Of a stretch of 64,000 nt of DNA, positions 59,529 to 63,431 are shown one piece after another (position 1 is the stretch's first letter; the number at the start of each line of letters is the position of its first letter). The notes under the pieces were generated by a model. That model was not told the DNA's origin and did not search any database. It was given only the letters and a program-made list of their open reading frames with translations. Origin of the DNA: Bacteroidota bacterium (GTDB lineage Bacteria > Bacteroidota > Bacteroidia > Bacteroidales > VadinHA17); contig DRFJ01000056.1 of NCBI GenBank assembly GCA_011050615.1, positions 1 to 64,000 of the forward strand. Direction: 5' to 3'. Made by a program: the position numbers and the translations under genes.

Positions 59529-60524
59529 ATGAATAAATCAGATTTGATATTAGACTGCCTGAAGGAGATACCCGTGCTTGAAATGTCAATCCTGCCTACT
59601 CCACTGCACAGGCTTAATAATATGAGTGCCAGACTGTCAATCGATCTCTACTGCAAGCGGGATGATCTTACCGCTTTTGCTTTTGGTGGTAACAAGACAA
59701 GAAAACTGGATTACCTGGTAATGGATGCTATCAGCACCGGTTATGACTCCCTTATAAGCTTCGGCGCCGTTCAATCAAACTGGTGCAGGATGACAGCAAC
59801 GGCAGGCAGTGTTAACGGTCTGGATGTTTTTCTTGTACTGTCAGGTGAAAAACCCGGAAAAGAGACGTCAAATCTTCTGCTGGACAGGCTTGCAGGTGCG
59901 AATATTACATTTATTGAAAGCACGGAGAGGGATGATATAATAAAGGAGGTTAACAAAAAGATCCTGGAATTGAAAAATAAGGGAAGGAAACCGTATTATA
60001 TGCCTGTCGGGGGTTCTGTGGCAAGGGGATCACTGGGATATATCAGGGCTATGGCTGAAATAATGGAATATTCAGAGACCAGTGGTGTTGATTTCCGGGA
60101 AATTATTTTGGCTTCAGGCTCGGCCGGTACCCAGGCAGGCCTTTTGGCAGGCCAGGTAATCTGTGGATGGCAGGGGCACATAAGAGGGATGGCAGTGTCA
60201 AGACCCAGGGATGAACAGGAGCAGATAGTGCTTGAAATAGCAAGGGACAGCCTCGATTTTATTGGCTATGAATATGAAGAACAAAGCTTGACTTCCGGGA
60301 TTCATGTGGATGACAGCTACCTTGGCGATGGTTACCGTCTCATTACTCCCGGATGCCGTCAGGCCATACAGGACTTTGTCCGCTATGAGGGCATCTTCCT
60401 GGACGAAGTATATACGGGCAAGGCTGCTGCCGGGCTTATCGATTATGCAAAAAAGGGAAAATTTTCATCCCAGGAACCTGTCCTCTTCATACACACAGGA
60501 GGCAGTGTACAGCTCTTCGAGTAA
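59529..60524 (+). CDS. ACC deaminase/D-cysteine desulfhydrase family PLP-dependent enzyme
   Basis: PTPLHRLNNMSARLSIDLYCKRDDLTAFAFGGNKTRKLDYLVMDA; FGAVQSNWCRMTATAGSVNGLD; ILASGSAGTQAGLLAG. Confidence 0.9.
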   Translation: MNKSDLILDCLKEIPVLEMSILPTPLHRLNNMSARLSIDLYCKRDDLTAFAFGGNKTRKLDYLVMDAISTGYDSLISFGAVQSNWCRMTATAGSVNGLDVFLVLSGEKPGKETSNLLLDRLAGANITFIESTERDDIIKEVNKKILELKNKGRKPYYMPVGGSVARGSLGYIRAMAEIMEYSETSGVDFREIILASGSAGTQAGLLAGQVICGWQGHIRGMAVSRPRDEQEQIVLEIARDSLDFIGYEYEEQSLTSGIHVDDSYLGDGYRLITPGCRQAIQDFVRYEGIFLDEVYTGKAAAGLIDYAKKGKFSSQEPVLFIHTGGSVQLFE

Positions 60525-60583: not shown

Positions 60584-61936
60584 TTACCGGATCATCGCAA
60601 TGCTTTCCTCAATTTCTTTATCTGTGAGTGCATGATCTTCAAGCTCTTCCGAGAAGTACTTGTCGTAAGCACTGAGATCAAGGTGGCCGTGCCCTGACAG
60701 GTTAAACAGTATTGTTTGCGGTATGCCGGCCTCATCACATTTGCGTGCCTCATCAATTGCGCCCGTTATGGCATATGTTGATTCAGGGGCAGGTAAGATG
60801 CCTTCGCTCCTGGCAAAAAGGACGCCGTTACGGAAACAGTCCTTCTGTAGTTTTGACCGGGCCTCCATAAGACCGTCTTTGAGCAGCTGGCTTACCAGTA
60901 CTCCTGCTCCATGGTATCTTAATCCACCGGCATGTATTTTTGCAGGAACGAAATTATGCCCCAATGTATACATGGCCAGCAATGGTGTTAGTCCCACTGT
61001 ATCGCCAAAGTCATACATGTACTTTCCTCTCGTAAGTTTTGGGCATGATGCCGGCTCTATGGCAATTGCACGGGTTTTATTACCATTAAGCAGATTTTCC
61101 CTTATGAAGGGGAAAGAGATACCTGAAAAATTGGAACCACCACCGAAACAACCAACTACGATATCGGGGTAGTCACCGGCCTTATTCATCTGTAATAATG
61201 CTTCTTCACCAATTATTGTCTGGTGCAGAAGGACATGATTGAGAACTGAGCCCAGTGAATATTTAACTTCAGCATCTGCGGCAGCTCTTTCAACTGCCTC
61301 GGAGATAGCTATTCCAAGACTCCCGGGGGAAGCAGGGTCTTCAGCCAGTATTTTCCTGCCGGATTCCGTCAGTTCACTGGGTGAAGGTACCACTGTTGCA
61401 TCATAGGTATTCATCATTATCTTACGGTAGGGTTTTTGCTCATAGCTTATCCTTACCATGAATACTTCCAGCTCAATCCCGAAATGCCGGCACGCAAAGC
61501 TCAGGGCAGTTCCCCACTGGCCTGCACCTGTTTCAGTAGTCATCTTCTTAACACCCTCAAGCTTATTGTAATAAGCCTGGGCAATAGCAGTGTTTGCCTT
61601 GTGTGAACCGGCATAACTGCCACCCTCGTATTTATAATAGATCCTGCAGTTTGTGCCTATGGCCTTTTCCAGCGCTGATGCCCTGAATAGGGGACTGGGC
61701 CTGTAACTCCTGTAAAGGTCGAGCACTTCCCCGGGTATGTCAATATATCTTTCTGTTGAAGCTTCCTGTTTAATAAGTCCCATCGGGAAAAGTGCTGCCA
61801 GGTCTTCAGGCTTTATGGGCTCCCTCGTTCCCGGGTGAAGAGGTGGCAGGGGCTTATTGGGCATGTCAGCAATAATGTTATACCACCTTGTTGGCATCTC
61901 CTGTTCAGTTAAAATGAATTTTTTTGTCGTTTTCAT
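60584..61936 (-). CDS. trpB: TrpB2-type tryptophan synthase beta-like PLP-dependent enzyme
   Basis: RPSPLFRASALEKAIGTNCRIYYKYEGGSYAGSHKANTAIAQAYYNKLEGVKKMTTETGAGQWGTALSFACRHFGIELEVFMVRIS; about 450 aa, typical of TrpB2 rather than canonical TrpB. Confidence 0.93.
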   Translation of the reverse strand: MKTTKKFILTEQEMPTRWYNIIADMPNKPLPPLHPGTREPIKPEDLAALFPMGLIKQEASTERYIDIPGEVLDLYRSYRPSPLFRASALEKAIGTNCRIYYKYEGGSYAGSHKANTAIAQAYYNKLEGVKKMTTETGAGQWGTALSFACRHFGIELEVFMVRISYEQKPYRKIMMNTYDATVVPSPSELTESGRKILAEDPASPGSLGIAISEAVERAAADAEVKYSLGSVLNHVLLHQTIIGEEALLQMNKAGDYPDIVVGCFGGGSNFSGISFPFIRENLLNGNKTRAIAIEPASCPKLTRGKYMYDFGDTVGLTPLLAMYTLGHNFVPAKIHAGGLRYHGAGVLVSQLLKDGLMEARSKLQKDCFRNGVLFARSEGILPAPESTYAITGAIDEARKCDEAGIPQTILFNLSGHGHLDLSAYDKYFSEELEDHALTDKEIEESIAMIR

Positions 61937-61984
61937 GATTTTGAGTATTTATGGTTTATAATTATTCCGTGTAAAAACAAAAAA

Positions 61985-62006
61985 GGCACGCTGTGACCAG
62001 CGTGCC
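61985..62006 (-). terminator. Intrinsic (attenuator) terminator upstream of trpB2
   Basis: Minus strand GGCACGCTG-GTCA-CAGCGTGCC-TTTTTT, 9-bp perfect GC-rich stem, tetraloop and T tract, 49 nt upstream of the trpB2 ATG. Confidence 0.93.
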
Positions 62007-62031
62007 TTTTTATGATAATCAGTTATATTAT

Positions 62032-62106
62032 TTACATAACAGCATGGTTCACAGTATGGTTTTTAATACTGCGCCACCACCAGCTATGTAGAATTGTTCT
62101 TTTCAT
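62032..62106 (-). CDS. Putative tryptophan leader peptide MKRTILHSWWWRSIKNHTVNHAVM
   Basis: Minus-strand ATG AAA AGA ACA ATT CTA CAT AGC TGG TGG TGG CGC AGT ATT AAA AAC CAT ACT GTG AAC CAT GCT GTT ATG TAA. Three consecutive Trp codons at 62074-62082, followed by hairpins and a terminator. Below the length cutoff of the supplied ORF track. Confidence 0.87.
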   Translation of the reverse strand: MKRTILHSWWWRSIKNHTVNHAVM

Positions 62107-62257
62107 CGTGACAAATCTAGATATTATTTTCAAAAATACAAGTCATGACAAAAGAATTTCTGTAATTTTAATTTTGTCCCAGAAGCTCAATTTTTTTATC
62201 AGACTCTGAATTACCAGGCACCCGGGACTCAGGAACGAACCACGAGCATGATTTCAT

Positions 62258-63268
62258 TTACCTTCCTGTCTGATAATCAATAAGTCCCTGTTCCTGTATC
62301 CTGCGTGTGAGAATATAGCCATAATCCCTGGATTTTCTTATTTTGCACTGCCCCCATGCAACAGTGGTCCATTCTTTAGCCTGGTGCAGGTTGCCCAGTA
62401 TCTCGTTTATCACTGCCAGGTTATGGGCGGCACGGCCCCTGACCTTTCTCTTATCCGGCTCCAGGGCTCTCTCAAGTGCTGCAATGGCTCTGTCCCAGTC
62501 GTTAAGTTGCATCATTCGCGCTCCTTCAGCAAGGTCATAATTACCCTTTCCTTTTTTAAAATAATCCCTGCCTGCATATATCCAGTCAGGTGTCAGCCGG
62601 CTGCCGTAAAGGGCACCTGCTTCCAGGCTGGCCCGTTCTATAGCTCTTTTCTTGTTAATTATGGCATCAGCTGCCGCTACCACAGAGAGGCCGCTGCCAC
62701 CCCAGTTAATCTGGTGCCTGTACATATATTCGTCAAGAATACTCCTGCTGGCAGGATGATACATCCTGAACCCGCAATTCACAGTAACCAGTCCGCGGGC
62801 TTCAAGGTTCAGCAGGTTATCAGAAACTGCAGCTCCCGTGATTATGAAATCTGAATCGTAGGCCTCCAGTGCTATCAGTGCATCAGAATTATATTTTTCA
62901 CATAAGCTTTCAACTGTTTCCCAGGATAAGGCCCCGGGGAGAAGAGTCCCGATACCTGATCCTTGTAATAATTCAGGGGTTTTTACTACCCTGAACAGGG
63001 CCGAGCCTCGCAGATTTTCATCCAGTCCCCTCAGGACAAACCGGGTGTTCAGGCTGTCCTGTTTCAGACCTTCACCTGTGAGCAAACCTTCCAGCTTGTT
63101 GGCATCAGTGTTGGAAGGTAGTGAACGGTTGACAATGGCTATTGATTTTATTTCATCAGGTACTGTCTTTACTGCCGGTACCAGTACATCAAAACTTATT
63201 CTTGATGCTCCGCATCCCGTTAAGAGGAGAAGGGGAATAATGAGGGCTGTAATTGACGGATTCTTCAT
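62258..63268 (-). CDS. DUF6340-like lipoprotein
   Basis: MKNPSITALIIPLLLLTGC|GASRISFDVLVPA lipobox; SIAIVNRSLPS; SDALIALEAYDSDF; C-terminal TPR-like helices. Confidence 0.75.
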   Translation of the reverse strand: MKNPSITALIIPLLLLTGCGASRISFDVLVPAVKTVPDEIKSIAIVNRSLPSNTDANKLEGLLTGEGLKQDSLNTRFVLRGLDENLRGSALFRVVKTPELLQGSGIGTLLPGALSWETVESLCEKYNSDALIALEAYDSDFIITGAAVSDNLLNLEARGLVTVNCGFRMYHPASRSILDEYMYRHQINWGGSGLSVVAAADAIINKKRAIERASLEAGALYGSRLTPDWIYAGRDYFKKGKGNYDLAEGARMMQLNDWDRAIAALERALEPDKRKVRGRAAHNLAVINEILGNLHQAKEWTTVAWGQCKIRKSRDYGYILTRRIQEQGLIDYQTGR

Positions 63269-63431
63269 GATTACTGCAATTTTTTGATAAATGTACAAAT
63301 AAAATGCCACAGAACTTCAAATTATGATACAGACTGGCAGAGCAGTTAAATTTTGTTAATAAATACATAATCATGGTTTATTTCTGAGAATATTTTATAT
63401 ACTTTAAAAGTAAAACACTAAAATCTTAGCT

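Follow-up and report, generated by a model that had tools for sequence, protein, structure and literature searches.

A candidate tryptophan attenuator ahead of a lone trpB2 gene in Bacteroidales

What controls a trpB2 gene that lies outside any trp operon, and which reaction does its enzyme serve? Both questions are raised by a 64,000-nt stretch of the Bacteroidota contig DRFJ01000056.1 (here called the window), in which trpB2 is preceded by a short open reading frame (ORF) with clustered Trp codons and by a set of hairpins. Our sequence analysis leads us to conclude that the trpB2 leader is very probably a ribosome-mediated transcription attenuator, which would make trpB2 expression dependent on charged tRNA-Trp. 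Reading back the minus strand placed the leader ORF, the Trp codons, the 1:2 hairpin and the terminator at the positions given for them in the initial annotation. The features of the locus are as follows.

62141-62139, minus strand: weak -33-like TTG element (about -34 to -32), from a sequence match; UBA9300 (L063) has ACTTGTATTTT as well
62119-62112, minus strand: -7 promoter box TAGATTTG, matching TAnnTTTG and conserved in 16 leaders
62106-62032, minus strand: leader peptide ORF MKRTILHSWWWRSIKNHTVNHAVM, 24 codons by sequence read-back, with the UAA stop at 62034-62032
62082-62074, minus strand: putative sensor, three consecutive Trp codons TGG TGG TGG (TGGTGGTGG), by sequence read-back
62073-62066, minus strand: segment 1, CGCAGTAT, pairing with 62057-62050; the pairing is in the 16-leader consensus fold and shows compensatory changes
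62057-62050, minus strand: distal arm of the 1:2 hairpin, ATACTGTG, from folding and the 16-leader consensus
62055-62038, minus strand: segment 2 (antiterminator strand), ACTGTGAACCATGCTGTT, forming a duplex with 62006-61991 at -17.0 kcal/mol, with covariation
62006-61991, minus strand: segment 3 (GGCACGCTGGTCACAG), the terminator 5′ arm, loop and CAG; partner of segment 2
62006-61985, minus strand: 3:4 intrinsic terminator hairpin GGCACGCTG-GTCA-CAGCGTGCC, -17.9 kcal/mol, with T6 at 61984-61979
60584-61936, minus strand: trpB2, the next gene after the leader, encoding a TrpB-like PLP-dependent enzyme of 450 aa, from profile scores

Folding of the 160-nt leader gave -49.8 kcal/mol, far better than the -28.6 ± 3.6 kcal/mol of shuffled sequences (z = -5.9, 0 of 200). 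We scanned both strands of the window for any ATG ORF of at most 40 codons that contains WW or WxW and has a strong hairpin plus T5 downstream. The trpB2 leader was the single locus found, and the combination did not occur in 60 dinucleotide-shuffled windows. The plus-strand ORF at 62012-62209 was set aside as antisense to the leader. For the antiterminator, the initial annotation had proposed a segment CTGTGAACC (62054-62046) pairing with GGTCACAG (61998-61991). Both lie at these positions and the pairing is supported, but its extent was drawn too small, since segment 2 extends its pairing into the lower part of the terminator 5′ arm. An additional element, CATGCTG, is present at 62046-62040 and not at 62047-62041, a slip of 1 nt that was the sole one among the coordinates.

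The search for relatives covered 60 genomes, the window's own included, and yielded 37 trpB2 genes above the cut-off; trpB2, leader and trp genes were tabulated by hand. A leader ORF with clustered Trp codons precedes 32 of the 37 genes, that of the window's own genome among them, and five have no Trp-codon leader. The pattern that had been named as evidence against attenuation, trpB2 orthologues devoid of Trp ORFs and terminators, was not what the relatives showed. The clusters take the form of WWW, WWWW, WRW, WCW, WLW and others, and WWW or WxW is present in every leader of a group of 16 that represents the window's clade. The leader ORFs usually lie about 190-230 nt ahead of the start of the trpB2 family match, with a hairpin terminator in between in nearly all cases. 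In a species-level collection, other Bacteroidales with the leader are UBA9300 (87% protein identity) and MAGs labelled Rikenella, Paludibacter and Alistipes. Among the trpB2 genes examined from Cytophagales, Saprospiraceae and Clostridia no such leader with terminator was found, which provides an internal negative control. In Flavobacteriaceae MAGs, trpB2 carries a different Trp leader, MKKQIFNNNWWCHETSVS in L088. This separate short WW leader also precedes the flavobacterial genes L090, L095 and L122, and its 2:3 pairing amounts to -11.1 kcal/mol in the single case checked.

For 29 leaders we computed the best duplex between segment 2, taken as the sequence that follows the last Trp codon, and segment 3, taken as the 5′ arm of the terminator with its loop. 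In 28 leaders this 2:3 duplex begins at a distance of 11-19 nt from that codon (+18 in the window; the exception is L012 with +7), which fits a stalled ribosome covering segment 1 only. Native partners pair with a mean energy of -17.06 kcal/mol versus -12.90 kcal/mol for swapped partners; a mean as low as the native one did not arise in 5000 random re-pairings. As kinship inflates this partner-swap test, pairs were also counted in the 16 closest leaders. Here 93.8% of cells are paired and 10 cells have changed on both sides, a number as high in 0 of 500 shuffles, and shifting the partner register by 1-3 columns reduces the pairing to 20-53%. The exchanges bring a GUCAC or GUUAC loop opposite a GUGAC- or GUAAC-type segment 2, with G, A or U at the variable loop position and C, U or A facing it. 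RNAalifold recovered the 1:2 and 3:4 hairpins from the same 16 leaders, where both sides have changed in 11 pairs, and the terminator stem is kept in relatives through A-U, C-G and G-C exchanges. For single sequences tested against shuffled segment 2, the 2:3 support in the window has a p-value of 0.022, and a few relatives are non-significant alone; the duplex carries one or two bulges. The 1:2 / 2:3 / 3:4 logic first suggested for this leader holds in the window and is accompanied by compensatory changes in relatives. Computation and covariation agree that antiterminator and terminator are mutually exclusive, with 1:2 as an alternative hairpin. Since the 2:3 duplex of the window is about as stable as its terminator (-17.0 versus -17.9 kcal/mol), the outcome of attenuation must be kinetic.

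Bacteroides promoters carry TAnnTTTG at -7 and TTTG near -33 (PMC7366714), and the TAnnTTTG box of Flavobacterium spans -12 to -5 (PMC9723704). In the 16-leader group, the end of a TAnnTTTG-type box is separated from the leader start codon by 5 nt in 14 leaders and by 6 nt in two, and the start codon is located 8 codons ahead of the first Trp codon; L033 has a variant -7 box, TACTTTCG. With the box at -12 to -5, the start site is predicted 1-2 nt ahead of the ATG, at about 62107 in the window. A start site downstream of 62106, also named as evidence against attenuation, is therefore unlikely. From this predicted start, the leader mRNA of the window's clade should be almost leaderless. Only 5.5% of the mRNAs assessed in F. 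psychrophilum are leaderless (PMC9723704), and about 3.7% of the 5′ UTRs of B. thetaiotaomicron are shorter than 10 nt (PMC7366714). In more distant relatives the spacing between box and start codon is 8-21 nt or more, which indicates that the near-leaderless start is a feature of the clade and not of the mechanism. A second sequence that fits the -7 box, TATTTTTG, 24 nt ahead of the ATG, was rejected because it is not conserved in close relatives.

With these elements, attenuation would proceed as follows. Transcription would start about 1 nt ahead of the leader ATG, and the ribosome would load at the extreme 5′ end. With Trp in good supply, the ribosome would clear the three UGG codons and reach the UAA at 62034-62032, where it would either cover segment 2 or release so that 1:2 forms. 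The 3:4 hairpin with its U-tract could then form, and transcription would end at about 61984-61979, ahead of trpB2. When Trp is scarce, the ribosome would be expected to stall at the UGG run and cover segment 1. Segment 2 would be freed to pair with the terminator 5′ arm and loop, allowing a presumably Trp-dependent read-through into trpB2. The enzyme would then most likely form Trp from indole and a serine-type donor and so act in salvage where the remaining pathway is missing. In some relatives the leader stop codon lies only 9-12 nt past the last Trp codon; a terminating ribosome cannot fully mask segment 2 from there, and release together with 1:2 pairing must do the job. Besides this action in cis, the terminated leader might serve as a trans-acting small RNA, or the leader peptide might be a signal. 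The strong terminator and the near-leaderless start would free an RNA of ~125 nt under plentiful Trp, and the trpL leader of Sinorhizobium is an analogy for a trans-acting leader RNA. We nevertheless regard such an additional role as unlikely, as attenuation in cis already accounts for all conserved features.

We next consider the regulated gene. The trpB2 product scores 624.7 bits with TIGR01415 (trpB_rel), over its curated cut-off of 518.85, which places it in the TrpB2 family, and 714.3 bits with NF009057. The TrpB1 model TIGR00263 gives only 128.6 bits against a cut-off of 392.45. The closest PDB chains are 6hul, 4qys and 6hte with 388-422 bits (all others reach about 115 or less), and both 4qys and 6hte are named beta chain 2. 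The stretches SHK and ETGAGQWG, which we take to be the sites of the PLP lysine and the catalytic glutamate, are identical in two structure alignments. Lying outside any trp operon, the gene corresponds by its context to TrpB2_o (PMC1854888). Convergent with trpB2 is a plus-strand gene (59529-60524) for a PLP-dependent protein that resembles D-cysteine desulfhydrase or D-cysteate sulfo-lyase, with every specific model below its cut-off. Upstream of the leader, the minus-strand gene at 62258-63310 encodes a DUF6340 protein with a weak TPR match.

The role of a lone trpB2 is disputed between Trp synthesis, indole salvage and serine deamination (PMC1854888). The initial annotation had reported no other trp genes in the window. 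This extends to the whole available assembly, in which a genome search found no trpA, trpB1, trpC or trpD; the assembly is only 85% complete, however, so that a trp operon may have been lost to a gap in it, and G003 from the same genus has the full trp set. Among the 60 genomes, 13 have an attenuated trpB2 with no trpA, trpC or trpD found, and four of these are 96-98% complete (G011, G012, G028 and G032). In 16 genomes trpA, trpC and trpD are all present in addition to an attenuated trpB2. Nine near-complete genomes are without trpA/C/D and also without trpB2, so trpB2 need not be retained when the pathway is lost. A tryptophanase above the curated NF053783 cut-off is encoded in the near-complete operon-less genomes G011, G012 and G032 (L145, L143 and L144, respectively), where indole may thus be both made and re-used. 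The model TIGR02617 (tnaA) had left all relatives below its cut-off, and the three rescanned proteins are tryptophanases by NF053783. No TnaA match was found in the window's genus, in which indole would therefore have to be external.

The attenuated trpB2 in 13 genomes with no trpA/C/D found favours indole salvage, and we consider it probable that indole is the substrate of TrpB2. The Trp-codon switch in these genomes is regulatory evidence that the cell treats TrpB2 as a source of Trp, and an attenuated lone trpB2 predicts indole cross-feeding by uncultured Bacteroidales. Attenuation could also be right while TrpB2 has a task unrelated to Trp supply, such as the deamination of serine. Phyletic patterns led to the proposal that TrpB2 has serine deaminase activity, and another function was suggested for P. 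horikoshii, where trpB2 is kept alone (PMC1854888). Such a role has a low probability in our judgement: the serine deaminase activity of TrpB2_o proteins is poor (PMC1854888), the Trp-codon control in 32/37 genomes ties trpB2 expression to Trp shortage, and the title of Hiyama et al. (2014), cited in PMC11085991, places both TrpB1 and TrpB2 of Thermococcus in Trp biosynthesis and indole salvage. For the indole salvage role, the chances seem even that a conserved near-leaderless Trp attenuator has been kept on trpB2 in Bacteroidales that lost the chorismate-to-indole branch. The tRNA-Trp-gated step from indole to Trp would then be their only Trp-making reaction, in some relatives facing their own tryptophanase.

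We compared the leader with known RNA families and systems. Bacteroid-trp (Rfam RF01692; Weinberg et al. 2010, PMC2864571), a Trp leader-peptide RNA of Bacteroidota, aligns end to end over 62126-61999, but at 33.1 bits the window's leader falls short of the gathering score of 49, as do copies from the same genus at 36.8-39.6 bits. The window's leader also differs in preceding a lone trpB2 and in the almost leaderless mRNA predicted for it. In two relatives (G046 and G054) RF01692 matches above its gathering score just upstream of trpB1, so that RF01692 and the trpB2 leader probably form one continuum. The classical enterobacterial trp attenuator (RF00513, Trp_leader) shares the run of Trp codons in a short ORF, the 1:2 / 2:3 / 3:4 arrangement and the terminator ahead of the structural gene. 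It differs in score (22.3 bits against a gathering score of 41), in controlling the trp operon and not trpB2, and in that the start codon here follows the promoter box by 5-6 nt and the antiterminator finds its partner mainly in the terminator loop and upper stem. Both scores being below gathering, the leader is filed under neither accession. At 14 other loci with Trp leaders there was no Rfam match at the gathering score. These leaders are missed by Rfam at its own thresholds, which suggests that the Bacteroid-trp model could be widened. Other Rfam matches (MicC, mir-630, Atu_C9, SR1, Thr_leader and others) fell below their gathering scores and mostly covered the GC-rich hairpin.

The leader might also bind a ligand or protein directly, as a Trp riboswitch, a T-box or a TRAP-type element, with the ORF incidental. 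The 'trpB motif' of Firmicutes (RF04312), a hairpin and terminator proposed as a riboswitch candidate by authors who do not exclude classical attenuation (PMC11109978), matches the window's leader weakly, with 24.0 bits against a gathering score of 59. Direct binding is nonetheless very improbable: neither a T-box nor any other Rfam family reaches its gathering score, and what is conserved (Trp codons, position of the start codon, register between codons and segment 2) is readable only by a ribosome. Hardly credible at all is an ordinary terminator next to a chance short ORF with trpB2 unregulated; the DUF6340 gene on the same strand ends about 250 nt ahead of the hairpin and its transcript could end there, but relatives conserve Trp codons, frame, hairpins and spacing, the 2:3 pairing covaries, and a conserved promoter box directly precedes the leader ORF.

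The attenuator proposed here works like classical trp attenuation. Our partial coverage of the literature found no open-access report of leader-peptide attenuation on a lone trpB2 in Bacteroidota. In the same phylum, strong clues for leader-peptide attenuation ahead of amino-acid operons come from Flavobacterium psychrophilum, although the main text mentions no tryptophan leader or trpB2 (PMC9723704). Corynebacterium diphtheriae has candidate attenuators before trpB1EDGC and trpB2A; the gene there is trpB2 by name, but it is in an operon with trpA and belongs to Actinobacteria (PMC1262725).

A covariance model built from our leaders (R1) matched a single copy in the window's genome, apart from a plus-strand match at 61910-62014 that mirrors the terminator and was discarded. 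Copies in relatives are weaker and lie mostly 3-4 kb ahead of trpC, and on inspection the loci L049, L054-L058 and L061 are WWW leaders with terminators. In L054, from the window's genus, the next gene is TrpE-like (best model TIGR00564, below its cut-off), followed by TrpG and TrpD over their cut-offs, and the gene after the L061 leader is also TrpE-like. A similar leader on trpE-trpG-trpD operons indicates that, where both exist, a single response to Trp starvation has the canonical operon and trpB2 as its two arms. Weak R1 or RF01692 matches with no Trp ORF (e.g. L043, L047, L050, L052, L053 and L059) resemble ordinary terminators and were rejected. Tandem Trp leaders occur in L057:1-330 and upstream of trpB2 in L035 and L026, where a second Trp-rich short ORF (e.g. 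MSKILNIRIISGKMSAWWWQWNGT, MKGYLVKWWRYINFRW..., MNEQLIHWWGRVIFRWRT) lies between the terminator of the first leader and the gene. Two further loci, L046:1-200 (plus strand) and the first 200 nt of L048 (minus strand), carry His attenuators built in the same way, in which a terminator comes after a leader ORF with runs of His codons (MNIYRHHHHHFMFRFAAR; MKIINRHSLHHHHHWEKP...). The gene after the L046 leader is hisG, over its cut-off.
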